From NCBI GenBank assembly GCA_017433825.1, contig JAFRGL010000018.1, forward strand, positions 21,228-85,227: a DNA stretch of 64,000 bases, read 5' to 3'. The notes under the pieces are model-generated. The model searched no databases and had not been told where the DNA came from. It saw only the letters and a list, made by a program, of their open reading frames with translations. Below, in pieces: positions 14,157-28,603 of the stretch (the first letter of the stretch is position 1; each line of letters begins with the position of its first letter). Source of the stretch: Eubacterium sp. (GTDB taxonomy: Bacteria > Bacillota > Clostridia > Lachnospirales > Lachnospiraceae). A program made the translations under genes and the position numbers.

Positions 14157-14705
14157 TTATCTGACTATCAGTTTCTCCAGCGTTTCAAACAGTGTCTGCG
14201 GCTCCACCGGCTTCGAAAGATGCGCGTTTAAACCCGCCTGCATGCTGCGCTGCACATCCTCGTCAAAAGCATTGGCCGTCAGCGCGATAATCGGAACAGC
14301 CGCGGCATCCTTTCTGTCAAGGGAACGGATTGCGCGGGTTGCCTCCAGCCCGTCCATTTCGGGCATGCGCATATCCATCAGGACCGCATCGTAATATCCT
14401 TCTTCGGACGCGGCAAATTTTTCCACGGCGATTCTGCCGTTTTCGGCCAGATCGGTCTCCATTTCCCTCATGGAAAGCACCATGACCATGATTTCCGCGT
14501 TGACCGGCATATCTTCAGCCAGGAGAACCCGCCGGCCCTTCAGGCCCGCATCTGTGCCGGCCGCAGTTTCCTTCCCGGTTTCTTCGCCGGAAACTTCCTT
14601 CTCCGGTTCTTCCGTTCCGGCAGGCGGTCCGTCATTTTGGACAGCATCCCCGCTTTTCCGGCCGGATTCCTCCAGGGTAACCGTCACCGTAAAGGTGGTT
14701 CCCAC
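14157..14705 (-). CDS. C-terminal fragment of the frameshifted hybrid kinase (receiver domain)
   Basis: 182 residues in a different frame from the preceding kinase ORF. It begins with the last strand of an HATPase domain ([13 protein letters not shown]), then an acidic linker, then one receiver domain (RVLLAEDM, acceptor Asp in [16 protein letters not shown]). It clearly continues the protein encoded at 14684-17218: restoring one A near 14710-14712 would join them in one frame. The apparent GTG start has no strong ribosome site, so separate translation is doubtful. See the frameshift finding. Confidence 0.8.
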
Positions 14706-17218
14706 ACCCTTTCACTTTCCACTTCAATATGCCCGTTCATCATTTCCACGATGCTTTTGGTAATGGGCATGCCCAGTCCGGTACTGCCGTATTTGTTGGT
14801 GGAGGAGGCGTCCTCCTGGGTGAAGGCTTCGAAAATATGCGGCAGGTATTCTTTGCTGATGCCGATACCGGTATCAGAGACGGTAATCTTCAGCGTGGCT
14901 TTCCTGTCATAGCGCGGACCTTCTTCAATACAGCAGGAAACCTTTCCGCCTTTCGGCGTAAATTTAACGGCATTTCCCAGAATATTGATAATAACCTGCT
15001 TAAGCTTCATTTCATCGCCGATATAATAATCGTCGATTTTCCCGACGGTACGGTATTCGTAGGTAAGGCCCTTGTCCCGGCACTGGCCGGCCACAATGGT
15101 ATTTACCTGGTCCATTCCCCGGGCAAAGGAAAATTCCTCATGCTTTACGGTCATTTTCCCGGATTCAATCCGTGTCATATCCAGAATATCGTTGATAATC
15201 CCGAGAAGATGCTGGGCTGCAGCGCCTGTCTTCTTCAGGTATTCCGTGATTCTGTCCGGAATGTCCGGTTCGTTCAGGGCAATGTTGTTCAGGCCGATGA
15301 TGGCGTTCATGGGCGTCCGGATTTCATGGCTCATGTTGGAGAGGAAGGCCGTCTTGGCCCTGTTGGCCTGCTCCGCGGCGTTTAACGCCTCCTTAAGCGC
15401 CCGGTTCCGGTCCATTGTCTCCCTCATCTCGGCATCGATTACCGTAAAGCCCACGCCCACGGCATGGACGATATGATCGTCCCGGTCCTTGGGATGGCGA
15501 ACGCCTGCCATTCGGAGCATTTCGTAGTATTCCGCGCCGTTCCTCCTGGCAAGATACCGGAAGGCAATAATGTCCTCCGCGGACAGGGCTTTTCTGATGT
15601 TTTCCGGTTCAATGAAGGCAAGGAATTCCTTTTCATATTCCTTATCCACGTACAGGCTGCAGTACTCCTGAAAACGGGCGTGGAAGGGGAAATGTACCCC
15701 CTCCGGCGTCTGGTGACTGTCGCCGGGATCCGCACGGTAGCAGACCGCGTCGTCCGTATCCAGATCCACATGGTAGACGCTCCGGTAGTCTGAAGCCATC
15801 GCCGTGATCATGGCGTCCTGTTCTTTTCTTCTCTTCTCCTGTTCCAGAAGCTTTTCCTGCAGCGCCAGCCGTTCCTCCAGCTCCTGCTGTTTCGCCCTGC
15901 TTTCCGCTTCGGCCGTCTTGATCCGGGTCATTTCCGTCACGTCCACGCACATGCCCAGAAGGCACAGCCGTCCCGACGGGTCCGTAAACTTTGTTTTAGT
16001 GGTCTGCAGGTTCCGGAATGCGGTTCCCGCGGCATCGGGCACGTCTTCGACATAAACATAAGCCTCATCCATGCCCAGTGCCTTCTGGTCATCCTTTGCG
16101 AAATGCGCGGCAGTCTCCGGATCGAAAAGCGCGAAATCGTCCAGACCGGTCACTTCCTCCGGGGATTTTTTACCGGCATACTCCGCAAAAGCCTGGTTGC
16201 AGGCCAGGTAAATGCCTGTTTCCGCGTCCTTGGAAAAGCTCATCGCAGGCATATTGGTCAGAAGGGAGGTAACGAAACCCATCAGATTTACAATCTTCGC
16301 AGCGGATTCCACCTCCTCCAGCAGTCTTTTATTCTCTTCTTCGGTTTTTTTCGCGTCCTGAAGGGCCTTCTGCAGGGCCCTACCCTCCCGGACTTCCAGA
16401 TCCGCGTCCTTAAAGCCCATGGTGACGCCGGTACGGCCGCCGGGCATGTTTACCTTGCCGAAATCAATCCTGTAATGCCTCGGCCCGTCTTTCAGATTCC
16501 GCATGAAATTCACGGAAAAAGCATTCCTGCTTTCGAACTGCTTCAGGATATACGGCAGGGAAATCTGCTCCTGCATCCTCTCCCGGTCCTCTTCAGCCAC
16601 CATGGTCTGCACGTATTCCGTTTTGGTATCCGAATATTTCGCGTGGCTTAAGGCGTTTCTGATGGCTTCTGCATGGATGCCGTCACTGTCCGTATGGAAG
16701 AGGGAGCAGTATTCCGTTTCCACGTCATTGATAAGCCATACCGTATTATAAGCCCCGGTCAGGGTCCGGATGACCGCGTCGCGTATTTCCAGGTCTGTCT
16801 CCCGCCTGGCGCGTTTTGCAGTAATATCCGAGATAAAAACGCAGTAGATGCCGCCGTAAGCTTCCGTATCCGTAAAATGGCCGTTGTCGTCCACCCACCG
16901 GATTTCACCGTCCCTGCGCACAATCCGGTACTCCACATAGTCCATGTTGTTCCCGCGGGTGCTTATCTGTTTTTCAATGGAGGCGGTGACCGTCTCGTAA
17001 TCCTCCGGATACACCATCCCCCTGAAGGTAAAGCCCGTCAGCGCCTTAAACTCTTCCAGAGTTCCGCAGCCGAAAATCCCGCAGCAGGCACGGTTGGCAT
17101 AGAGAAGCGTCCCGGATTCGTCGGCCTTGTAAATGAAAAAGCCGCCCGGCATATATTCTTCTATTTCTTCCACGAAGTAAATGGACTCTTCGCTGAACGC
17201 AGACCGTTTTCCCAACAT
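14684..17218 (-). CDS. PAS-containing hybrid histidine kinase, frameshifted near its end
   Basis: N-terminal and kinase portion of a protein that would be about 1020 residues without the frameshift. No membrane segment is evident, so it is probably cytosolic. It has several PAS-like sensor domains (YKADESGTLLYANRACC and a later SKDAETGIYLACNQAF), coiled-coil linkers, HisKA with His631 in MSHEIRTP, and HATPase motifs NILGNAVKFTP, DTGIGIS and STGLGMPI. The frame then ends with [12 protein letters not shown] where relatives read VESEKG.GTTFTV. An in-frame start at 17341 overlaps the upstream gene; the ATG at 17218 with an AAGGAG site is preferred. It lies 58 bases downstream of the REC-EAL gene in the same direction. 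Confidence 0.85.
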   Translation of the reverse strand: MLGKRSAFSEESIYFVEEIEEYMPGGFFIYKADESGTLLYANRACCGIFGCGTLEEFKALTGFTFRGMVYPEDYETVTASIEKQISTRGNNMDYVEYRIVRRDGEIRWVDDNGHFTDTEAYGGIYCVFISDITAKRARRETDLEIRDAVIRTLTGAYNTVWLINDVETEYCSLFHTDSDGIHAEAIRNALSHAKYSDTKTEYVQTMVAEEDRERMQEQISLPYILKQFESRNAFSVNFMRNLKDGPRHYRIDFGKVNMPGGRTGVTMGFKDADLEVREGRALQKALQDAKKTEEENKRLLEEVESAAKIVNLMGFVTSLLTNMPAMSFSKDAETGIYLACNQAFAEYAGKKSPEEVTGLDDFALFDPETAAHFAKDDQKALGMDEAYVYVEDVPDAAGTAFRNLQTTKTKFTDPSGRLCLLGMCVDVTEMTRIKTAEAESRAKQQELEERLALQEKLLEQEKRRKEQDAMITAMASDYRSVYHVDLDTDDAVCYRADPGDSHQTPEGVHFPFHARFQEYCSLYVDKEYEKEFLAFIEPENIRKALSAEDIIAFRYLARRNGAEYYEMLRMAGVRHPKDRDDHIVHAVGVGFTVIDAEMRETMDRNRALKEALNAAEQANRAKTAFLSNMSHEIRTPMNAIIGLNNIALNEPDIPDRITEYLKKTGAAAQHLLGIINDILDMTRIESGKMTVKHEEFSFARGMDQVNTIVAGQCRDKGLTYEYRTVGKIDDYYIGDEMKLKQVIINILGNAVKFTPKGGKVSCCIEEGPRYDRKATLKITVSDTGIGISKEYLPHIFEAFTQEDASSTNKYGSTGLGMPITKSIVEMMNGHIEVESERVWEPPLR

Positions 17219-17276
17219 TGTCTTCTCCTTGCTTACGAACAAACAGTCAGGGAATCTTTCATTAATGGACTGTACC

Positions 17277-19493
17277 TTAAAACACGACGCAGCCGCTTTT
17301 CTCTTTTTTCGCCTTCTGCAGGGCGGTATCCGCGTCTTCAAACACGTCGCCCTCCGGATTTTCCCTGTCGGAAAAAGCGATGCCGACGCTTAAATGAAGG
17401 GCGGGCCGGCCCTCCGGCGCGTTTTTCAGCGTATTGTTAATCAGTTCCAGCTTATCCAGAATCTGCCTTTTCATGGCGCTGGTCATTCTGGAAACAATAA
17501 CGACGAATTCATCCTCCTGCAGGCGGCAGACATAATCGGAGGAGCGGAAGCTGCTGCGAAGCACCTCCGCGACTCTCTTAACCGCCTCATCCGCAGCGGC
17601 CTTCCCATGCAGGCTGCGGAAGGTCCGGTAATCATCCGCAGAAGCAAGGATGACGGCAATGTGGTCATGGTCCGCATCATGGAACAGGACATCAAAGGCG
17701 CTGTGGTTGTAAAGCCCGGTCAGGGAATCGTGCATGGCATCATACGTATATCTGTCCTTCGGTCCGCTCCTGGCCGGTTTCCCGGTTTTCTCCGTCGCAT
17801 TCTTTGTGATGTCCAGATTGCGGACATATTCGTTGAATTCCTCCACGGGCAGCGGTTTTGAGAAATAATATCCCTGTACGATATCACAGCCCATAGCCTT
17901 CAGGGTAAACACCTGCTCTGCCGTTTCCACACCCTCCGCGACGGTGGGAAGGCCCAGGGACTGGGCCAGGCCGATAACCGCTTCCAGAAGCCTCGTATCT
18001 TTCCTGTCCTTAAATGCCGTGCGGATTAGCTGCATATCCAGCTTCAGCGCGTCGATGGGCAGTGTGGAAATCATGTTCAGGGAAGAATATCCGGTGCCGA
18101 AATCGTCCATTTCAACGAAAAATCCCCTGTCACGCAGGGCGCTCACCACGCCGATTATCTGTTCGGAATCCTCCGTATAGGCAGATTCCGTTATCTCCAG
18201 CAGCAGTTCGCCGCCCATAAGGTTCTCATTCTCCGCGATACCCTCCAGGGTGTCCAGAAGCTTCGGATCATACAGGTCAATCCGGGAAACATTGACGGAT
18301 ACCGGAATAACCCGGCCCAGCGTTTCCTTCCACCGCCGGATCTGCGCGGCGGCTTCCTGCCAGACATAACAGTCAAGCTCACGGATCAGCCCGTTATCCT
18401 CAAAAAGGGGAATAAAGACACCGGGACTTATCATGCCCAGCTTCGGATGCTGCCATCTGACCAGCGCCTCCGTGCTGTTTAAAATCGGCTCTGCGGGACG
18501 TATGTCAAATTTGGGCTGGTAATGTATCTTAAACTGTTTTTCCCGGATGGCTGTATGGAAATCATCCAGCAGCTGCTCGGCAAAGAGTTCCTTTTCGCGC
18601 ATGGAATCATCGTACATGCCCACTGCATGGGAGAAGCTGTTCCTGACGGTATCCGCCGCCTGTTTGGCCCGGTCAAACCGGCGTTCCATATCAACGCTGC
18701 GGTCCACTTCGGCATACACGCCCATACGGACGCGGACATGATAGTCCCCCTCCATATCTATGCAGGCCTTTTCCAGGATCTCGTCATAATCACTGCGGTG
18801 CGGACAGTAAATGAGGAAGGTATCGGCCTCCCGTCTGCAGACAATGCCGTCTGTACCGCTCATGCTTTCCCTGAGCTTGTCGGCAATCCCTTTGAGCACC
18901 CTGTTGCCGAATTCCCTTCCGTAGCGCTCATTGATCATGTGGAAATGATTGATGTTCAGCAGAATCGCGTCCGTCGGCACATCCGCATGATAGGTGTCAA
19001 ACTGGGCAGCATAACGGTAGAAATAATCCGGGTTGTAAAGCCCGGTCAGCTGATCCCTTTCCGTCCATCTGATAATATCCCTGTCCTCAAACAGTTCGAT
19101 TGTCCGTAAGATCCTGGCCAGCACCACAGCCTGCTTCGGATACGGCTTCGGTATAAAGTCCGTCGCGCCCAGGTTCAGGCATTCGACCTCCGCCTCCTGG
19201 TCAGCCGTCATCACGATGACCGGTATCAGGGCCGTGCGGATATCCGACTTGATCCCGCGCAGGATATCCGTGCCTTTCATATCAGGCAGGTTTAAATCCA
19301 GCAGCACAAGGCTCAGCGTTTCGTACTGCTCCTCCAGAATCGTCTGCGCCTTGCCGCCTGTTTCCGCAAATACGACGTCGTAGGTATCCTGAAGCAAAAA
19401 GTTCAGCATTTCCCGGTTTATCGCTTCGTCCTCGACAACCAGAATCCGCCTTTTTCCTCCGTAAGAATGAAATTTCAGATTGTTTTCGGGCAT
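17277..19493 (-). CDS. REC-GGDEF-EAL-GGDEF protein, probable c-di-GMP phosphodiesterase
   Basis: 738 residues. A receiver domain comes first (ILVVEDE, acceptor Asp66 in VLLDLNLP, PKPYPK). The next domain is GGDEF-like but its active-site motif reads READTF, so it should not make c-di-GMP. The EAL domain keeps catalytic features: TEALVRWQHP, SVNVSR, LEITES, EMDDFGTGYSSL, LKLD and VAEGVE. A second C-terminal GGDEF-like domain follows with QEDEF in place of GGDEF. The protein is therefore likely a response regulator that degrades c-di-GMP, with two degenerate cyclase domains as regulatory or dimerisation parts. It probably receives phosphate from a neighbouring hybrid kinase, but no HPt gene is adjacent. 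Confidence 0.92.
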   Translation of the reverse strand: MPENNLKFHSYGGKRRILVVEDEAINREMLNFLLQDTYDVVFAETGGKAQTILEEQYETLSLVLLDLNLPDMKGTDILRGIKSDIRTALIPVIVMTADQEAEVECLNLGATDFIPKPYPKQAVVLARILRTIELFEDRDIIRWTERDQLTGLYNPDYFYRYAAQFDTYHADVPTDAILLNINHFHMINERYGREFGNRVLKGIADKLRESMSGTDGIVCRREADTFLIYCPHRSDYDEILEKACIDMEGDYHVRVRMGVYAEVDRSVDMERRFDRAKQAADTVRNSFSHAVGMYDDSMREKELFAEQLLDDFHTAIREKQFKIHYQPKFDIRPAEPILNSTEALVRWQHPKLGMISPGVFIPLFEDNGLIRELDCYVWQEAAAQIRRWKETLGRVIPVSVNVSRIDLYDPKLLDTLEGIAENENLMGGELLLEITESAYTEDSEQIIGVVSALRDRGFFVEMDDFGTGYSSLNMISTLPIDALKLDMQLIRTAFKDRKDTRLLEAVIGLAQSLGLPTVAEGVETAEQVFTLKAMGCDIVQGYYFSKPLPVEEFNEYVRNLDITKNATEKTGKPARSGPKDRYTYDAMHDSLTGLYNHSAFDVLFHDADHDHIAVILASADDYRTFRSLHGKAAADEAVKRVAEVLRSSFRSSDYVCRLQEDEFVVIVSRMTSAMKRQILDKLELINNTLKNAPEGRPALHLSVGIAFSDRENPEGDVFEDADTALQKAKKEKSGCVVF

Positions 19494-19615: not shown

Positions 19616-21610
19616 CTATTCATCCAGATGATATCTTCTCCGCTCCGCGGGAATCAGTTCGCGGCCGTTTAAGAGTTCTTCCGCCAGGGCAATCTGCTCT
19701 TCCAGGGTTTCGGGAACTTCGATTTCCTCCGCCCGGTATTCGTAATAATATTTATCCGCGCTTTTGTCTGTATAAACGCTGCTGTAAAGCAGCATAACGG
19801 AAGCGCTTTTGTTCCCGTAGACCGGATCCTCCGGACCGCACAGGCTGAACTCGGTTTCCCGTAAATCGTGAATGATATCCACTGTATGCCCGTCCGCAAG
19901 ATCGATAACATAGATATCATTTCCGCGCCAGAGGGGCAGCCAGCCTTCCGAAGACTGCGTCAGGAAACGGACGCCCGAAGACTGTCCGAAATCGTCCATC
20001 TCGAACAGGAAGCTTCCGTCTTCTTCGTCATACACAAACTGCTCTCCCACGATGATGCGCCGTGAACCGTCCGGCAGGATTGCCAGATAGGTGCCGTTCC
20101 AGTAGGTGGAGCCGTTGGGCGCCGTCGCAAACAGCTTCGTATTCTCATCCTCAATGATATACTTTAGACGGAATGGTCTGCTTTCGAAGACCGCGATACC
20201 GTCCCGGTTCAGGGCGTGCACCCGGTCGGAGAAACCGGGTCTTTCCATGAAAAATGTCACCTCAAAGGGAAGTTCCTCCGTCAGGGACGTTTCCCCGTCA
20301 TAGACGGGAATCTGCCTGACGTTTTCCTCCTTTAAGGCCGGCTTGTCCGCGCCTGCCGACTCCGTGACAGAAAACCTTAATAATACTTTATCGCTTTTCT
20401 CCAGCAGGAGCGAACCGTCCGGGAGAATCTTCACCGCGGATATACCTGTCACAAGGCTGCCGTCAGTCATCCGCAGGTAAAAGCCTTCTTCCGCGCCTGA
20501 CGCGGAACCAATCCAGAGGATTTCATCCGCATCGTCCCAGGTTTCTCCCCAGCGGACAGTTCCCTGATAGACGCCGTAACCGTATTTCACTGAATAATCT
20601 TTCAAAGACACATGCGCGTCGTCCGGTCGGTATGGTTTATCCCCGCTTCCGGAGGGCGGGAGGATTTCCATCGAAGCAGGAAGCGTACCCGGCCTTTCGT
20701 CATCTTCGGATTCGCTCAGCAATGTGTACCCCCCATAGGAAAGCGAGTCCATCTGCCGGGTCCGTTCGTACGCCTGTTTGGTTGTCACGGGGGTAAAGCC
20801 CGCGCTGCATCTGATGGACAGGGCTTTTTCAAACACTTCCGTGAGTTCTTCTATCTGCCGCATTTCCGGCAGGTATTCCAGGCAAAGCAGCATCGCCAGC
20901 TCCGTATTTCCCGCGTCCAGCAGTCCGTCCGCCGTCACGGCAACGGTGCGGGCCAGGGCCTCCTGCGCCGCGTCTTTCTGCTCCTGCGCTTCGGCAAGCG
21001 CTTCTTCCGCTTCAGCATACTGCTGCTGCAGCTTTTCATTCTGCTGCCGGATAATCTGCATCCTGGAAATGGTAAAGATGAGGAAAACCGCCGCCGCCCC
21101 CATCACCGCGCAGCCCGCCGCCAGACGGATTCTCGCCTTCTGCCGGCGGTCCCGGTTCATCAGGTCGTCAAACCGCACGCCCAGCATCGGTGCCAGAAGA
21201 CGGAGTTTTTCCGTTTTCAAAAGGCCGTATGCTTTCCAGGCGCTCTCCGCCGTGATATTTGCCGCCAGCGGCTCATGTTCCTTTACCGTGCCGTCGGGCA
21301 GCTTTTCGAAACGGATATTTTCCGGAAAGCTTGTCACAGGCGTTCCTTCCGCCAGCACGGTGAGAATCCGGTTTCTTTTCCCGGCAGACAAGTATTCCTC
21401 TATAACGCTGCAGACTGCGCCGTCACCGGGCGTATCCGGCGTGCAGATGACAATCAGCCAGCTTTCCGGTATTTCACGCACCGTATGGATGCCTGTCTTT
21501 TCAATGATGTCTTTATGAATACGGTATCCTTCCAGCTCTTTTTCCAGTCTTTCAGCCAGCTCAGCGGAAGACGGCGGGGCAATTACCTGAAATCCTTTCT
21601 TTTCAGTCAT
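19616..21610 (-). CDS. Degenerate TIR-like / membrane / propeller-like protein, partner of the TIR protein
   Basis: 664 residues. The N-terminal ~110 residues align by eye with the second half of the upstream TIR domain (RNRILTVLAEGTP against RKDRILPVLVSGTP), but the SxWCxxE catalytic segment is lost: a Val stands where the Glu should be. A transmembrane helix (about 163-182) follows, then a coiled coil rich in Gln, Glu and Ala (185-225), then a long beta-rich region with repeated DG turns. The C-terminal LLNGRELIPAERRRYHL resembles the ending seen in many bacterial WD40 proteins. The ribosome site lies in the end of the upstream TIR gene, two bases away, so the two are co-translated and probably form a complex. 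Confidence 0.72.
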   Translation of the reverse strand: MTEKKGFQVIAPPSSAELAERLEKELEGYRIHKDIIEKTGIHTVREIPESWLIVICTPDTPGDGAVCSVIEEYLSAGKRNRILTVLAEGTPVTSFPENIRFEKLPDGTVKEHEPLAANITAESAWKAYGLLKTEKLRLLAPMLGVRFDDLMNRDRRQKARIRLAAGCAVMGAAAVFLIFTISRMQIIRQQNEKLQQQYAEAEEALAEAQEQKDAAQEALARTVAVTADGLLDAGNTELAMLLCLEYLPEMRQIEELTEVFEKALSIRCSAGFTPVTTKQAYERTRQMDSLSYGGYTLLSESEDDERPGTLPASMEILPPSGSGDKPYRPDDAHVSLKDYSVKYGYGVYQGTVRWGETWDDADEILWIGSASGAEEGFYLRMTDGSLVTGISAVKILPDGSLLLEKSDKVLLRFSVTESAGADKPALKEENVRQIPVYDGETSLTEELPFEVTFFMERPGFSDRVHALNRDGIAVFESRPFRLKYIIEDENTKLFATAPNGSTYWNGTYLAILPDGSRRIIVGEQFVYDEEDGSFLFEMDDFGQSSGVRFLTQSSEGWLPLWRGNDIYVIDLADGHTVDIIHDLRETEFSLCGPEDPVYGNKSASVMLLYSSVYTDKSADKYYYEYRAEEIEVPETLEEQIALAEELLNGRELIPAERRRYHLDE

Positions 21611-21612
21611 CT

Positions 21613-24600
21613 TCAGTCACCCTCCCCGATTCCGTATTCCTGCCTCAGTTCCTCCAGATAAGCCGGAGACTGCTGCGAAAGCTTTGTATTTGCTTTCTGC
21701 ACCAGGGTATCCGGATCGGAAGCCCGGATAATTCTCGGCGTTGTATAATAGCCGTAAATACAGAGGCTTTCACCGTCCGGCGCGACGGCGGCGCCTACGG
21801 CAATACGGCTGTATTTGAAATCCAGAAGCGTGATGCCGTCGGAAATCCGTATAATCCTCAGATCGTCCATCTCCAGGCGGACGTTGTTGAGCGCGGCGTC
21901 ATACCCGCCGAAAACCACATGCTGGGAAGCGTTCGCCTCATCCCTTAACTCCATCAAAGGGTCTTTGGCCTGCATGGTTGTCAGCATCCTGCCCCTTTCG
22001 GTGTCTGTATAGACCGCCGGCCCGAAACTGCCGCCCGCCTCCAGCGTTTTGCAGTATTCGGTTTCTTCTTCCGCTACGGTCCAGCGTACTGCCATTTCCC
22101 CGGTATAAGAAAAGACGAAATCGCAGTATTCCTCCAGGTCCCAGGAATCCAGGAACCTGCCGTCCGGCAGCGAGTAGACTTCTATATGTGTTCCCTGCCC
22201 GTTTTCCGTTTCCGGGTGGCTGGTCAGGGAAAATTTCTGCTGTTCTTCGCAGACCTGCACATACCTGGTCGGGCTTTTGTAGGGTTCTTCCAGCAGGATG
22301 GTATCCTCCAGGACGCTGCCGTCTTTTGCCGCGAGGCGGATATACCGTATCCCGGCTTTGTCCGCGTCCTTGTCCCAGTATCTGTTTACGCTTAAGATCT
22401 GGCTGCCGTCCGCCGACCAGCAGGCTTTTTCCATATCGGTTTTTACCCAGTATTCTTCCCCTGTTTCCGGATTGAACGCGACGATGTCGCTCCCGTATTC
22501 CGCGGGAGAAAAAGCGATTTCGTTTTTCCCGTCCGGATTCTCTTTAGGCATCAGGCGGTCCCTGGCGCAGTCTTTCCACGATACGCTCCAGAGGGTTTCA
22601 CCGGTTTCCGCGTCAATTTTCTCCAGGCCGTCCATGTAGCTGGTCGCCCGCCAGACAGCATTTCCGTCCCGGGAAAGGCAGCAGAAATCATGCGCGTTGC
22701 CCTGCAGCGTCCATCTGCTGTCATTGTTCCAGATAAACCTGCCGGTTTTTACATCCCATTTGGAGACCTGGCCGCCGTACTGCTGCAGGTAGATGTATTT
22801 ACTGTCGGGGGAATAAAAGGCATACGCGGTTTCATACACAACCCCCTGCTCGTAAAGAGGAAAATAGTCCGTGGCTTCCATCGAGCTGTCCGCTTCGATT
22901 TCATACAAATCCACGCGGTTCTCATACAGAAGGCAGAAGGAATTGCCCAGATGCCGCCACAGCTGCTGCTCATATCCCTCCCAGAAAACGTCTATGGGCA
23001 TTTCCTCCGGGAATATTTCCTTCACCAGCCTTCCGTCCAGGCTGACAATCCTGATGCCGCCGTCAGCGCAGAGCAGCAGGAACAGTTCCTTCTGGCTGCA
23101 GTACTGCAGGGAAAGCACCGGCGCAGGAGAAGGAAACCTGTATTCTTTTTCCAGCGTAACCGCATTGATTAAATAAGCGTCCCCCGAAGCATCCACAGCA
23201 CAGAAGCAGGTGCTGCTGTCCGGATAATAAACCTTCGTCCATTCGCCCGGCAGAACTGCTTTTTTCCTCCCGAAGTCTGTATCAAAGAGATAAATCGTCC
23301 CTTTGTCGTTAACCACCGCGATACGGGAGTAGTTGTCGGAAAGTCCGGCGGAAACAGGCAGGCCTTCCATCTCCAGTCCGAGCGCTTCCGTCTCCCCGAT
23401 ATAGAAAAACGCGGTCTGCTGCTGCCCGGAAAGAGGATTTTCGTTCCAGGCCAGCATATAAGAGCTTTCTCCGCATTCCAGCACGTGATCGGCGTAAATA
23501 TACTCTCCGTTCAGCGTAATCCGGTTCTCTTCCAGGGTTTTCTTATACCCGTTGTTGGTGGTTAAGGGTTTATCCGGCCCGTAAAAGACGGTCTGTGAAC
23601 CCCGGCCTCCTATGTATCCCATACTGTAGCCGGCTTCGGCGGCATTTTTCTTCGCCGCAGACTCCACCGGTACGATTTCCCCTGTTTCGTAAGTCAGATA
23701 GTATTCAAAAGGCCCGTCTTCGTCATCCAGAAGCAGTACGCCGGCTGAACTGTCCGTATTTTCACTTGACAGATAACCGGTAATGGTAAAGTCCGTTTCA
23801 TAGCTTTTGGAATATGTCCAGCTGTCTTTGGGCGCTGCCGGCATGCTCACGGCGGCCCTTAAGGCACTGATAGCTTCTTCCGAAACAGGCGCGTCCCCGT
23901 GCAGGTCTTCCGGAAGCGCCTCCAGGGCAAGAAGAACTGCCGCAATATCCTCCTGACTGTCTATGGCCGTCCAGGCCCTTTCCGACAGGAACCGGGCATT
24001 GGTAAGTATCGCGCGGTTTCTCTCTTCCACCGCCGCGTCTCTTGCTTCCCGGGTCCTTGCGGTAGCAGCGGCAATTTCCCGGTTGTTGCCGGCAATCCGG
24101 TTTGCCGTGACCGAAGCATAGCCGGCAAATCCCAGTACGCCGGCAAGCACGGCCGCAAAAACGCCGCCGCGGACCATAAGCCGGTTTCTCCGTTCGGAGG
24201 CAGCATATTCTTTCGCATCCTCTCCCGCTGCACGTCCGAGAATTGCCGCAGCGCATTCGTCGAGTGCGGCAGCCCGTTTCCTCCCCGAAGTATCCCTGAG
24301 GTCGGCTATGACGGGCAGATCCCGGATGGATTCCGGTATGGACTTCTCCGGCGTTCCGCTTACCAGTACGGGCAGGATCCTGTCCTTCCTGCCCAGCTTT
24401 AAATACACTTCCACCTCTTTCAGGCACCACAGGGAACCCATGTAGTCCTCGGAGCACAGGCAGATAAGGAATCCGCTTTCCTTCAGCGCATTCTCAATAT
24501 CCGTACCCAGGTCCGAGCTGGTCGGCAGCTCGTCTTTATCCCGGAAAACACGCCGTTTCCGGTCAAGCGCCGACGCCTTCGGCAGATGCCAGTTCTCCAG

Positions 24601-24678
24601 CTTTCTCCGAAGCTGGAGGGATATCTGCTGTTCCCCCGGATTATGTCTGTAGCTGATAAAAGCAAAATATCTTTCCAT
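21613..24678 (-). CDS. TIR domain protein with membrane helix and extracytoplasmic beta-propeller
   Basis: 1021 residues. The TIR domain occupies about 1-130: FISYRH (box 1), RVFRDKDEL (BB-loop region) and SLWCLKEVE, where Glu88 matches the catalytic glutamate of NAD-cleaving TIR domains. One transmembrane helix follows at about 171-189, then a coiled coil, then some 750 residues of WD40/PQQ-like repeats (for example AVVNDKGTIYLFD, KWDVKTGRFIW, FNPETGEEYW). With the TIR in the cytoplasm the propeller would be outside. Known: TIR domains in bacteria often hydrolyse NAD or make cyclic ADP-ribose signals in defence. Inferred: an envelope sensor controlling a cytoplasmic TIR. The MGMT gene lies upstream on the same strand. 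Confidence 0.87.
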   Translation of the reverse strand: MERYFAFISYRHNPGEQQISLQLRRKLENWHLPKASALDRKRRVFRDKDELPTSSDLGTDIENALKESGFLICLCSEDYMGSLWCLKEVEVYLKLGRKDRILPVLVSGTPEKSIPESIRDLPVIADLRDTSGRKRAAALDECAAAILGRAAGEDAKEYAASERRNRLMVRGGVFAAVLAGVLGFAGYASVTANRIAGNNREIAAATARTREARDAAVEERNRAILTNARFLSERAWTAIDSQEDIAAVLLALEALPEDLHGDAPVSEEAISALRAAVSMPAAPKDSWTYSKSYETDFTITGYLSSENTDSSAGVLLLDDEDGPFEYYLTYETGEIVPVESAAKKNAAEAGYSMGYIGGRGSQTVFYGPDKPLTTNNGYKKTLEENRITLNGEYIYADHVLECGESSYMLAWNENPLSGQQQTAFFYIGETEALGLEMEGLPVSAGLSDNYSRIAVVNDKGTIYLFDTDFGRKKAVLPGEWTKVYYPDSSTCFCAVDASGDAYLINAVTLEKEYRFPSPAPVLSLQYCSQKELFLLLCADGGIRIVSLDGRLVKEIFPEEMPIDVFWEGYEQQLWRHLGNSFCLLYENRVDLYEIEADSSMEATDYFPLYEQGVVYETAYAFYSPDSKYIYLQQYGGQVSKWDVKTGRFIWNNDSRWTLQGNAHDFCCLSRDGNAVWRATSYMDGLEKIDAETGETLWSVSWKDCARDRLMPKENPDGKNEIAFSPAEYGSDIVAFNPETGEEYWVKTDMEKACWSADGSQILSVNRYWDKDADKAGIRYIRLAAKDGSVLEDTILLEEPYKSPTRYVQVCEEQQKFSLTSHPETENGQGTHIEVYSLPDGRFLDSWDLEEYCDFVFSYTGEMAVRWTVAEEETEYCKTLEAGGSFGPAVYTDTERGRMLTTMQAKDPLMELRDEANASQHVVFGGYDAALNNVRLEMDDLRIIRISDGITLLDFKYSRIAVGAAVAPDGESLCIYGYYTTPRIIRASDPDTLVQKANTKLSQQSPAYLEELRQEYGIGEGD

Positions 24679-24756: not shown

Positions 24757-25257
24757 TTATCTGATGATTCCTTCGAGTTTCAGCAGTGCTTCCTTGCGGG
24801 AAAGCCCCCCTGCGTAGCCGGTCAGTTTACCGTCTGCACCGACGACACGGTGGCAGGGTATCAGAAGCGTGAACCGGTTGCGGCCCACTGCCTGCCCCAC
24901 AGCCCGGGCGGAAACACGCTTCCCCGTTTCTTCCTCCAGCTGTTTCGCTATCCGGCCGTAGGTTGCCGTCTCCCCGTAAGGTATTTCCGCAAGGATATGC
25001 CAGACCGCTTTCCGGAAATCCGTGCCGGCAATTTCCATTTCCGGAAGGAAATCCGGGTTTCCCCCCGAAAAATACTTATCCAGCCAGCGTACGGTTTCAG
25101 CAAAAACGGGCAGGATTTTTTCACCGGGATTTCCCGCATTTTCCGGGAAATCCGGCGCGTATTTCTGGTCCGCAAACCACAGGCCGGTAAGCCTGTTTTT
25201 CTCAGCGGTCATGAGCATTTCCCCCAGCGGGGACTGATAATAATATACTGCCTGCAT
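24757..25257 (-). CDS. ogt: Methylated-DNA--protein-cysteine methyltransferase
   Basis: 166 residues. It transfers the alkyl group from O6-methylguanine (or O4-methylthymine) in DNA to its own cysteine, a suicide repair reaction. The active-site motif IPCHRVVG is intact, preceded by FRKAVWHILAEIPYGETATYGRIA (DNA-binding helix region) and ARAVGQAVGRN with the arginine finger region. No Ada-type N-terminal domain is present. An in-frame TTG at 25263 is possible, but the ATG at 25257 following GGGG is preferred. It lies upstream of the TIR pair on the same strand. Confidence 0.93.
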   Translation of the reverse strand: MQAVYYYQSPLGEMLMTAEKNRLTGLWFADQKYAPDFPENAGNPGEKILPVFAETVRWLDKYFSGGNPDFLPEMEIAGTDFRKAVWHILAEIPYGETATYGRIAKQLEEETGKRVSARAVGQAVGRNRFTLLIPCHRVVGADGKLTGYAGGLSRKEALLKLEGIIR

Positions 25258-25373
25258 TTTCAACCCCGGATTGTTTTTTACAGATGAATTTTAACATACA
25301 AATACGATAAATGAAAAGAGTCCCGCAGGCCGTTTCTGCCTTTAGATGCGCGTTTTGCAGGAAAAGCGTTTCC

Positions 25374-26524: not shown

Positions 26525-28603
26525 ATGAAAAAGACTTACAGATGTCTGGCTGTATTCCTCTGCATTGCCGCAGTGATTCTTTCTTCCTGCGGGACAGGCG
26601 GCAGTACGCCTGGCGGAAACGCAGGCTCAGAGGCCGTGTCGGAGAAAAGCGAAGCCCCGGCCGCTGCGGCCGTGGATTTTGAATATACTGCGGATGCGGA
26701 CGGCCGCCTTACGCTGACTGCCTATACGGGAACGGAAGCAGACCCGGTCATCCCGGCCGAAATAGACGGACAGCCGGTGGTATCGATAGGAAACGGCTGT
26801 TTTACAGGGCTTCTGTGCATCCGTAAAATCCATATCCCGGAGGGAATCGAAAGCATCGGCGACTATGCCTTTGAATGCTGCAGCGCGCTGGAGAAGGTTT
26901 ATTTTCCCGAATCGCTTAAAAGCATCGGTACCGGTGCGTTTTCCGGCTGCAGCCACCTTACGCTGGCAGACATGCAGGACGGCATCACTTCAATCGGCAC
27001 CGGCGCTTTTCTGTACTGCACCTCCCTCGTAAACCTGGAGCTCCCCGCTGATCTGGAAGCTCTCGGCAGTTTCGCCTTTGCCGGCTGCGAAAGCATTGCC
27101 AGGGTGAATTTCAGGGGAGACGCGCTTACCGCGATCCCGGACCGGCTTTTCTGCGGATGCGCGGGCATGATGTACTGTAATCTGCCGGAAAAGCTTGCTT
27201 CAGTGGGCAAAAGAGCCTTTGCGGGCTGTGAAGAGCTTAGGAAGCTCTGGTTTTTCGAGCCCCTCGAAAAGGTATCCGAATATGCCTTTGAGGAATGTGT
27301 CTCCCTGAAGAATCTGAATTTTCCGGTGGAATACATGGAAAAAGGCACGTTTACCCGCTGCCAGGCTTTGTCTTATTTCAGCTGTGACGAAAGTACTGTC
27401 CGTATCGGGGAAATGGCCTTTTCAGGTTCAGGCATTAAGGATGTCTCCGTTGCCGCAGGCACCAGGGACATCGCCGAAGGCGCTTTTGGAAATTCGTTTG
27501 TGAAAAGCGTCAGCGTTCCCGAAGAAAATGAGTATTATGAGGTGAAGAACGGCTCGCTTTACGCCGACGGCGGGAAAACGCTTCTGGCATATTTCCCCGA
27601 AGATCCCTACGCGGAGGAGGAGCAGACAGAGTTTACCGTACCGGACGGGGTGGAGGTTATCGCCGCCTATGCGTTTTCCAACAGCCCGCTGGAAGTAATC
27701 CGGCTTCCGCAATCATTAAAGGAAATCCATGCTTACGCGTTTTCAAACACCCGCATCACCGGACTGGATATCCCGGAAAACACAGTCCTCGACCCGGACG
27801 CCTTAAAGCAGACCGCCCTTGACGAAGAATCCTCTGACCCCGGGCAGGCAGCCTCGGAAGAAATGCCCAGGCCAGACTTCATCGGTTCCGCCGCGCCGGA
27901 TAAGAGTCTTTTCCACGAAGAGGATTACAGGGATTATCTTGAGATTTCCAACGATGAATTCGAAGCGTGGAGCGAGAAATATCTGGACTATAACAGGCAG
28001 TACGGCATCATTGACCGGGAATACATGCCTTATATCATGATGTACAAGGGAGAAACCATCACCCACTATGTGGCCATGACCGCCGTGCAGAATCACGATC
28101 CGGACATGTGGGACCGGGCAGCCGGCAAATTCGGGGATGATTTCGAAGAAATGTACCTTATGATGAACCACGGCCTCTTTACGGAGCTTCGCCGCGGGAA
28201 AATGTGCGACAGCCTGGTCCTTTACAGCGGCCTGTACGATTCCCAGGTCTGCGCCGCGGCGGGAACGGAAACCCTTCCGACAACGGAACAGCTTGTCCGC
28301 GCCATCGGCAGCACCTTTACCGACCCTGTTATGATAAGCACCACGACGGACAAGGAAGTCGCAGCCGGTTTCGGGGATACGCTTTTCATCATTTATGCGT
28401 CAAAAGAAGCAATGGAATCGCTGGGTGCTGTCGCAATAGACAGCCTGATAGGCACAATGGAAAAAGAGATTCTGATGTGCGCCTATGCGCAGTACAGAAT
28501 CCTGGATGTGGGAACGATGGAAATAACCCCTTCCGACGGAAGCAGCCCTCTGTACCGGAATTATATCAAGGTTGAGCTTCTTGGTCCGGGGAGGACGGAA
28601 TAA
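26525..28603 (+). CDS. BspA-type leucine-rich repeat lipoprotein with ADP-ribosyltransferase-like C-terminus
   Basis: 692 residues. Signal peptide with lipobox LSSC (Cys near 22), then a low-complexity Gly/Ser/Ala linker. From about 65 to 430 there are tandem BspA-type (LRR_5) repeats of the form SIGxxAFxxCxxLxxVxxPxxL. Residues ~470-692 resemble an ART exoenzyme fold: LVLYSGL (568 is the Ser in place of the usual Arg of YRG), ISTTTDKEVAAGFG (Ser605, the STS-like strand) and a MEKEIL segment with Glu646 and Glu648 as the ExE motif. Known: R-S-E-class ARTs modify proteins with ADP-ribose. The missing Arg makes activity uncertain. Probably surface-exposed. Confidence 0.8.
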   Translation: MKKTYRCLAVFLCIAAVILSSCGTGGSTPGGNAGSEAVSEKSEAPAAAAVDFEYTADADGRLTLTAYTGTEADPVIPAEIDGQPVVSIGNGCFTGLLCIRKIHIPEGIESIGDYAFECCSALEKVYFPESLKSIGTGAFSGCSHLTLADMQDGITSIGTGAFLYCTSLVNLELPADLEALGSFAFAGCESIARVNFRGDALTAIPDRLFCGCAGMMYCNLPEKLASVGKRAFAGCEELRKLWFFEPLEKVSEYAFEECVSLKNLNFPVEYMEKGTFTRCQALSYFSCDESTVRIGEMAFSGSGIKDVSVAAGTRDIAEGAFGNSFVKSVSVPEENEYYEVKNGSLYADGGKTLLAYFPEDPYAEEEQTEFTVPDGVEVIAAYAFSNSPLEVIRLPQSLKEIHAYAFSNTRITGLDIPENTVLDPDALKQTALDEESSDPGQAASEEMPRPDFIGSAAPDKSLFHEEDYRDYLEISNDEFEAWSEKYLDYNRQYGIIDREYMPYIMMYKGETITHYVAMTAVQNHDPDMWDRAAGKFGDDFEEMYLMMNHGLFTELRRGKMCDSLVLYSGLYDSQVCAAAGTETLPTTEQLVRAIGSTFTDPVMISTTTDKEVAAGFGDTLFIIYASKEAMESLGAVAIDSLIGTMEKEILMCAYAQYRILDVGTMEITPSDGSSPLYRNYIKVELLGPGRTE

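Follow-up and report, generated by a model that had tools for sequence, protein, structure and literature searches.

Toll-like receptors are single-pass receptors with the TIR domain inside, as described in the available part of a TIR survey (PMC7075850). A layout with some likeness to this was identified in two adjacent genes of a 64,000-nucleotide stretch of Eubacterium sp. contig JAFRGL010000018.1. The whole of that stretch is referred to here as the window. The protein of the first gene, P1, has a TIR domain of the catalytic type and the protein of the second, P2, has a degenerate one; each continues through a membrane helix into a beta-propeller. The TIR domain of the pair is N-terminal, the reverse of the order in Toll-like receptors, and the ectodomain is a propeller and not a set of leucine-rich repeats (LRRs), so the likeness is a resemblance only. 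The plant pair RPS4 and RRS1 are cytosolic nucleotide-binding leucine-rich repeat receptors (NLRs) with LRRs. They lack a membrane helix and a propeller and are unrelated as a system; the repression seen there is used below as an analogy for P1 and P2.

The pair resembles Thoeris in having a putative TIR signal producer, and P1 matches the Pfam domain model ThsB_TIR at 21.7 (cut-off 21.2). A SLOG-like protein also co-occurs in genomes that bear the pair. The window pair differs from Thoeris in being membrane-anchored with propellers. No ThsA-type effector was recognized beside it among the flanking open reading frames (ORFs) read by eye, or by Pfam at 17280-19493 and 26525-28600. The NCBIfam ThcB4 model scores 16.4 bits against a cut-off of 220, and no PADLOC ThsB model matched the window pair at E<=1. 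Due to the lack of a neighboring effector and the equivalog scores below cut-off, the pair cannot be placed in Thoeris. In the SLOG, SLATT, RyR, and TIR networks of Burroughs and Aravind, SLATT is a predicted effector for ADP-ribose (ADPr) derivatives near TIR genes (PMC9503650, available part).

The same domain order is found in TIR - membrane helix - propeller proteins that stand alone, referred to here as solo proteins. One is encoded by the host genome on contig C20 (L015:8479-11511) and others are present in records from Lachnospiraceae and other Clostridia. In contrast to P2, they retain the BB loop, the motif Trp, and the Glu (15 of 15 aligned). They group with P2 and not with P1 in an unrooted tree, and share an EPLAA segment with P2. 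No paper on the function of solo proteins was found in open-literature searches. A membrane TIR-propeller pair with a pseudo-TIR was likewise not found in the open literature, subscription literature being mostly outside the search. The available text of the survey PMC7075850 contains neither ‘propeller’ nor ‘WD40’, and that of the gut-TIR study PMC9092222 mentions no such pair. The pair adds a variant of TIR signaling with a conserved and structurally explicit pseudo-TIR.

P1 is 1021 residues in length and has the following features.

21613..24678, minus strand: P1, TIR - membrane helix - propeller, 1021 residues (ORF; Pfam TIR_2 and PQQ_2 above cut-off)
24289..24678, minus strand: P1 TIR domain, residues 1-130 (Pfam TIR_2 at 35-130 and TIR at 7-100; alignment)
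24481..24546, minus strand: P1 BB loop and helix B, approximately residues 45-66 (alignment; present in 14 of 14 P1 and 0 of 14 P2 N-termini)
24415..24417, minus strand: P1 Glu88 codon, the catalytic residue in SxWCxxE (no exception among 14 P1 and 15 aligned solo TIR proteins)
24124..24180, minus strand: P1 membrane helix, residues 167-185 (hydropathy; a single segment in 14 of 14 P1)
21679..23838, minus strand: P1 beta-propeller ectodomain, approximately residues 281-1000 (PQQ_2 at 625-745; matches to propeller profiles of the PDB, both PQQ and WD40)

Pfam places P1 in the TIR superfamily with both TIR_2 (47.7 bits, cut-off 28) and TIR (29.9 bits, cut-off 21.3). The motif reads S-L-W-C-L-K-E88, as the first-pass annotation had pointed out in assigning an SxWCxxE signature with Glu88 to the 1021-residue protein. 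All six motif positions examined (R46, D47, S82, W84, C85, and E88) are retained in each of the 14 aligned P1, and the BB-loop Arg-Asp and the motif Ser, Trp, Cys, and Glu are likewise kept in the 15 solo proteins. A catalytic Glu and a BB-loop motif are the marks of NAD-cleaving TIRs, and on these residues P1 is likely to be an NAD-cleaving enzyme. The ectodomain matches PDB profiles of PQQ and WD40 propellers with a best E of 1e-9. The predicted one-pass topology, with the N-terminus inside, fits hydropathy and flanking charges. Cysteine content was tried as a topology test and was uninformative, at 1.48% in pooled exported-like proteins (n=21, crude sorter) against 1.54% (n=50).

P2 is 664 residues in length and repeats the plan of P1, as had been proposed, with a TIR-like part, a membrane helix, and a beta-rich ectodomain.

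19616..21610, minus strand: P2, pseudo-TIR - membrane helix - coiled coil - propeller, 664 residues (ORF; structure model)
21251..21610, minus strand: P2 pseudo-TIR domain, residues 1-120 (hhalign to P1 TIR; AlphaFold2 model; structural matches)
21469..21470, no strand: P2 site, between residues 47 and 48, at which P1 has its BB loop and helix B (22-column gap in 14 of 14 P2 N-termini)
21404..21406, minus strand: P2 Val69 codon, aligned with P1 Glu88 (alignment)
21068..21124, minus strand: P2 membrane helix, residues 163-181 (hydropathy; N-flank charge +3)
19718..20806, minus strand: P2 beta-propeller ectodomain, residues 269-631

No TIR family in Pfam matched P2 at E<=10. The comparison of the full-length P2 structure had only propellers among the matches listed, and the TIR half was therefore folded separately. 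Modeled alone with AlphaFold2, it has a predicted local distance difference test score (pLDDT) of 88.8, and of the 50 structural matches listed for it, 47 belong to TIR proteins or complexes and three to related ones. Together with the hhalign alignment to P1, the model and its matches identify a TIR fold at the P2 N-terminus, as claimed earlier from the letters. The membrane helix falls within a long helix of the model (147-233) where pLDDT is low. The ectodomains have a propeller fold of the WD40/PQQ kind.

The pseudo-TIR is missing the 22 residues of the BB loop and helix B in all 14 aligned P2 N-termini, a count from which the truncated P2 of G429_C152 was excluded. The motif Trp is also gone from every one of the 14. 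P2 does retain the strand D-E region and an EHEPLAANI segment. The column aligned with Glu88 contains Val in one copy, Arg in five, Ala in two, Lys in three, and Glu in three. The first-pass annotation had taken Val in place of Glu as the mark of degeneracy. This is true of the window copy, but because the column varies and three of 14 P2 keep the Glu, it is rejected as the defining lesion. The contrast that it drew between a catalytic and a degenerate TIR was right. As judged from the alignment, the defining defect of P2 is the deletion of the BB loop and helix B with the loss of the motif Trp.

In the window, P2 begins 2 bases past the end of P1. The host genome (G000), of 2.6 Mb in 25 contigs, contains 12 TIR_2 matches, 11 of them above cut-off, and three P1-P2 pairs (contigs C18, which is that of the window, C8, and C14) with a mutual identity of 35-39%. 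Twelve more P2 loci were identified in eight other genomes, for 15 P2 loci in all. A contig scan returned 21 loci, of which nine have P2 (L039-L046 and L050; records titled Clostridiales, Clostridia, or Bacillota), 11 have solo TIR proteins, and one (L054) was assigned to neither. Isolate names such as Goat_Omasum and Sheep_Rumen point to ruminants. Three pairs are present in G426 (RUG363) and two in G428. P1 is the neighbor of P2 at 14 of the 15 P2 loci, and the expected co-occurrence of the two genes elsewhere is thus found. The exception, L043, is cut off by the end of its contig. It and the G429 locus L092 may be two halves of one locus; they overlap by 97 residues with one difference, read by eye. 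Gene order is P1-P2 in ten pairs and P2-P1 in four, with spacing from a 17-base overlap to a 13-base gap.

Among 397 genomes of the host’s family, full-length P2 was found in the host genome only, and so was full-length P1. Two candidates per genome were scored for P1 and three for P2, so that an unpaired P1 or an extra P2 could escape; the P1 search listed two of the host’s three P1. No full-length P2 was found in six genomes of the host’s genus, four of which are less than 90% complete. P2 relatives numbered zero in the viral contigs and had no match in the phages searched, and two plasmid matches cover the TIR region only. The pair is real and old, its tightly spaced genes having stayed adjacent through long divergence, and P1 and P2 very probably form a functional unit.

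In the unrooted tree, P1 forms one clade and P2 another, each with 100/100 support, and P1 is split from P2 plus the solo proteins, also at 100/100. The placement of P2 beside the solo proteins of pair-bearing genomes is less well supported (82/70). L051, which has an uncertain start, was not counted among the solo proteins. Mirrored branching is seen in the P1 and P2 clades for the window pair (C18) with G426 C23; for host C14 with G426 C31 and G430; for G427 with G428 and G429; and for G431 with G432. The mirror-tree correlation over 11 complete pairs, three truncated pairs being excluded, is r=0.951, a value inflated by the near-copies G431 and G432, and none of 20,000 permutations is as high. 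The true within-genome pairing ranks first of 36 swaps; because the runner-up reaches r=0.944 against 0.951, co-divergence within a genome counts as weak evidence. In both proteins it is the TIR part that is conserved. Mean pairwise identity in P1 is 64% for the TIR and 31-32% for the ectodomain, and in P2 it is 49% for the pseudo-TIR, 60% for the segment that follows, and 28-32% for the ectodomain.

A LysS tree was constructed with 25 genomes, G427 being left out due to having no LysS match. The eight pair-bearers in it fall in at least three places, and five of them are separated from all 17 other LysS rows. These five are taken to lie outside the sampled order, on this one gene. The scattered placement, with no full-length P2 in the six genus genomes, argues that the two genes spread, or disappear, together.

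Two further protein families accompany the pair. At L040 (G427), P0001, which reads as a SLOG part with a SLATT-like membrane part, lies 37 bases upstream of P2-P1, and at L043, P2 is preceded by P0002, an HD-RyR-like protein. At E<=0.1, nine P0001-type proteins match DUF4231 in eight cases (best E 3.3e-4) and the YAcAr SLOG model in six (best E 9.5e-4); DUF4231 belongs with SLATT. The host protein of this type, on C17, matches SLATT_3 at 21.5 bits against a cut-off of 45. P0001 has no PADLOC match. Nine P0002-type proteins match RyR in five cases (best E 5.8e-5) and HD in one, and a distant HD-RyR-type protein of G324 exceeds the RyR cut-off (60.7 bits, cut-off 27.4).

Relatives of P0001 are present in eight of the nine pair-bearing genomes, including the host (C17), with six full-length and two as the membrane part only. 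They are present in four of 396 other family members, one having the SLOG part only, and, as fragments, in one of the 284 further genomes sampled from the order. Fisher’s test of 8/9 against 4/396 gives p=2.6e-13, with five of the nine outside that sample. The cleaner test is for this reason the one limited to the three pair-bearers that LysS places among the sampled relatives (the host, G426, and G430), in which 3/3 against 4/396 gives p=3.3e-6 by hand. Relatives of P0002 are present in 7/9 pair-bearing genomes and 10/396 others. The P0001 locus was read in 12 genomes. A TIR or TIR-like gene is in the cluster in six (G427, G426, G241, G105, G164, and G324), HD-RyR alone is beside P0001 in two (G430 and G428), and neither is present in four (G000, G431, G432, and G433).

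The co-occurrence of SLOG-SLATT hints at an ADP-ribose-type signal, an idea that draws on this link and on the SLATT effector prediction cited above (PMC9503650). Phage proteins with a RyR domain break down 2' and 3' cyclic ADP-ribose or sequester them, according to the available part of PMC13232231. The host C17 protein is a candidate effector acting in trans. A role of SLOG-SLATT as the effector is tentative, and stands below even odds.

The best explanation as a whole, at about even odds, is that P1 and P2 are two subunits of one membrane-anchored signaling unit in which P2 would cap P1. The TIR parts would be inside and the propellers outside. The propellers or coiled coils would hold P1 and P2 together and respond to a cue from outside the cytoplasm. 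In the resting state, the BB-loop-less pseudo-TIR would bind the P1 TIR, cap it, and block an active array of P1 TIRs. The cue would loosen the cap, P1 TIRs would assemble, and NAD+ would be cleaved, with NAD loss or an ADP-ribose-type messenger as the output. A likely reader of the messenger in pair-bearing genomes would be the SLOG-SLATT-like membrane protein, in trans, and the HD-RyR protein, where present, may remove the signal. The overall role may be abortive defense or envelope surveillance. Two described cases serve as models. In a bacterial STING-TIR, replacement of the BB loop abolishes NADase activity and keeps the filaments (PMC9402430, available part), and in RRS1/RPS4 a TIR-TIR contact represses the autoactive partner RPS4 (PMC9528088, available part). 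By analogy, P2 is probably a regulator of P1, a cap like RRS1 on RPS4, and the two-gene layout resembles a sensor fitted with its own safety catch.

Several observations weigh against this explanation. Three of the 14 P2 retain Glu at the catalytic column, and the co-divergence result is subject to the runner-up swap and the near-copies given above. The SLOG, SLATT, HD, and RyR labels of the P0001 and P0002 families are weak profile matches. SLOG-SLATT adjoins the P1-P2 pair in one genome only (G427, L040). The host copy (C17, L121:8768-10411) lies on a different contig from the pairs, and the surrounding 19 kb that were read contain no TIR gene. No relative of P0002 was found in the host genome. 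Five of the nine pair-bearers stand apart from the sampled relatives, and the background sample does not cover them. No defense gene was recognized beside the three host copies, whose neighbors were not scanned with PADLOC. The evidence also fits a cap and an activator alike, and the chance that P2 represses rather than activates is put at one half.

An activating P2 would be a co-subunit whose pseudo-TIR surface completes the P1 active site, and the enzyme would be active only when P1 and P2 are assembled. The active site of the bacterial STING-TIR is completed in such a way by residue D110, which the opposite protomer contributes from its DD loop (PMC9402430), and the strand D-E region and EHEPLAANI segment kept in P2 are where an activating surface would lie. 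The solo protein of C20 has all motif positions and no P2 beside it, which indicates that TIR-propeller proteins can exist without a pseudo-TIR neighbor, and an activating role is considered rather unlikely. P2 could instead be a decaying, functionless duplicate; it has no motif Trp, no Glu in 11 of 14, and 22 fewer residues. The deletion is identical in all 14, the reading frames are open, and the pseudo-TIR is more conserved than the ectodomain, and the single origin of P2, the mirrored trees, and an adjacency that has outlasted swapped gene order also argue against decay, which is given hardly any weight. Chance or decay as the origin of the pair is rejected on the alignment, mirror-tree, and clade results. 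If the P1 TIR were a scaffold only, the pair would signal by protein contacts, and motif conservation by itself is no proof of NADase activity; the invariance of E88, W84, S82, R46, and D47 in 14 of 14 P1 makes this improbable.

The role of the P1-P2 unit is a separate matter. The pair may not be immune at all, and may sense the envelope, nutrients, or surface contact, with a TIR product that tunes physiology. The neighbors of the pairs, which were not scanned with PADLOC, look ordinary and no defense island was recognized among them. The viral, phage, and plasmid results given above are of the same tenor, and the presence of three divergent copies both in the host and in G426 would suit different cues. 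Against this, the combination of TIR with SLOG/SLATT partners is typical of conflict systems (PMC9503650 and PMC7159879, available parts), and the patchy spread of the pair suits defense genes. A non-immune role is a credible minority reading. A role in phage defense is rated slightly higher and is itself doubtful; the pair may sense phage or an envelope event and deplete NAD. The first-pass interpretation is supported in part; the defense-island setting that it had proposed to look for is not supported, the neighbors of the three host copies being ordinary-looking.

A second type of cassette is present in the host genome at C12 (L013:13579-18760), where, of three consecutive genes, two have a degenerate TIR-like head and one has an intact TIR. 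One encodes a degenerate TIR-like protein, one a protein with the intact TIR_2 (motif SPNCFSE) and LRRs, and one a membrane-helix LRR protein. The TIR-like head of the last is 9-14 columns shorter around the BB loop (host copy and two relatives) and is without the Glu. The trio lies between HD-RyR and SLOG-SLATT in G241 (L131:8044-13000) and beside HD-RyR and SLOG-SLATT-like genes in G105 (L132:10306-16160). The degenerate heads align weakly, at 16-26% identity, and those scanned have no Pfam TIR match. With this trio, the plan of a catalytic TIR plus a pseudo-TIR looks general. It could, although this is a speculative extension, mark a general bacterial class of transmembrane TIR receptors with catalytic and BB-loop-less pseudo-TIR partners, at least two ectodomain types (propeller and LRR), a shared SLOG-SLATT membrane effector, and an HD-RyR off-switch, as a counterpart in logic of Toll-like receptors and paired plant NLRs.

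If the capped-subunit explanation is right, the pair would represent a bacterial receptor design whose enzyme TIR depends on licensing, across the membrane, by a dedicated and catalytically dead TIR partner. The two-gene unit makes it testable how TIR NADases stay silent, and whether a BB-loop-less TIR is a cap or a co-activator. Orphan TIR-propeller-like proteins, whose TIR part is matched in 52 of the 396 other family genomes, would be pointed to a possible nucleotide effector.

The window pair has a REC-GGDEF-EAL protein downstream. The neighbors of the C8 pair are AIM24 and a Na/H exchanger, and those of the C14 pair are amino-acid transport genes, read by eye. PADLOC gave weak TIR matches only for the proteins scanned. 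A promoter and terminator scan returned seven promoter-like sites against 3.7 expected and five terminator-like sites against 7.5 expected, and none of these is claimed as a promoter or terminator. An MGMT-like gene, identified by eye (24757-25263), lies 78 bases upstream of P1; another (L128:4660-5214, also by eye) is near the HD-RyR/SLATT genes of G428, possibly by coincidence. The gene after a P1-P2 pair in G426 (L039:9991-11313) has a marginal match to PF25302, the NAD glycohydrolase translocation domain (27.7 bits, cut-off 27).

Elsewhere in the window, 26525-28603 encodes a BspA-type LRR lipoprotein-like protein. An ADP-ribosyltransferase identity for its C-terminal 268 residues had no database support and was rejected. 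A hybrid histidine kinase, identified by eye at 14157-17341, is present as two overlapping ORFs (14684-17341 and 14157-14705) in a frameshift-like arrangement. On host contig C13 (L011:8217-9910), two adjacent proteins of approximately 260-290 residues have two TIR_2 matches each, one of the four being below cut-off.

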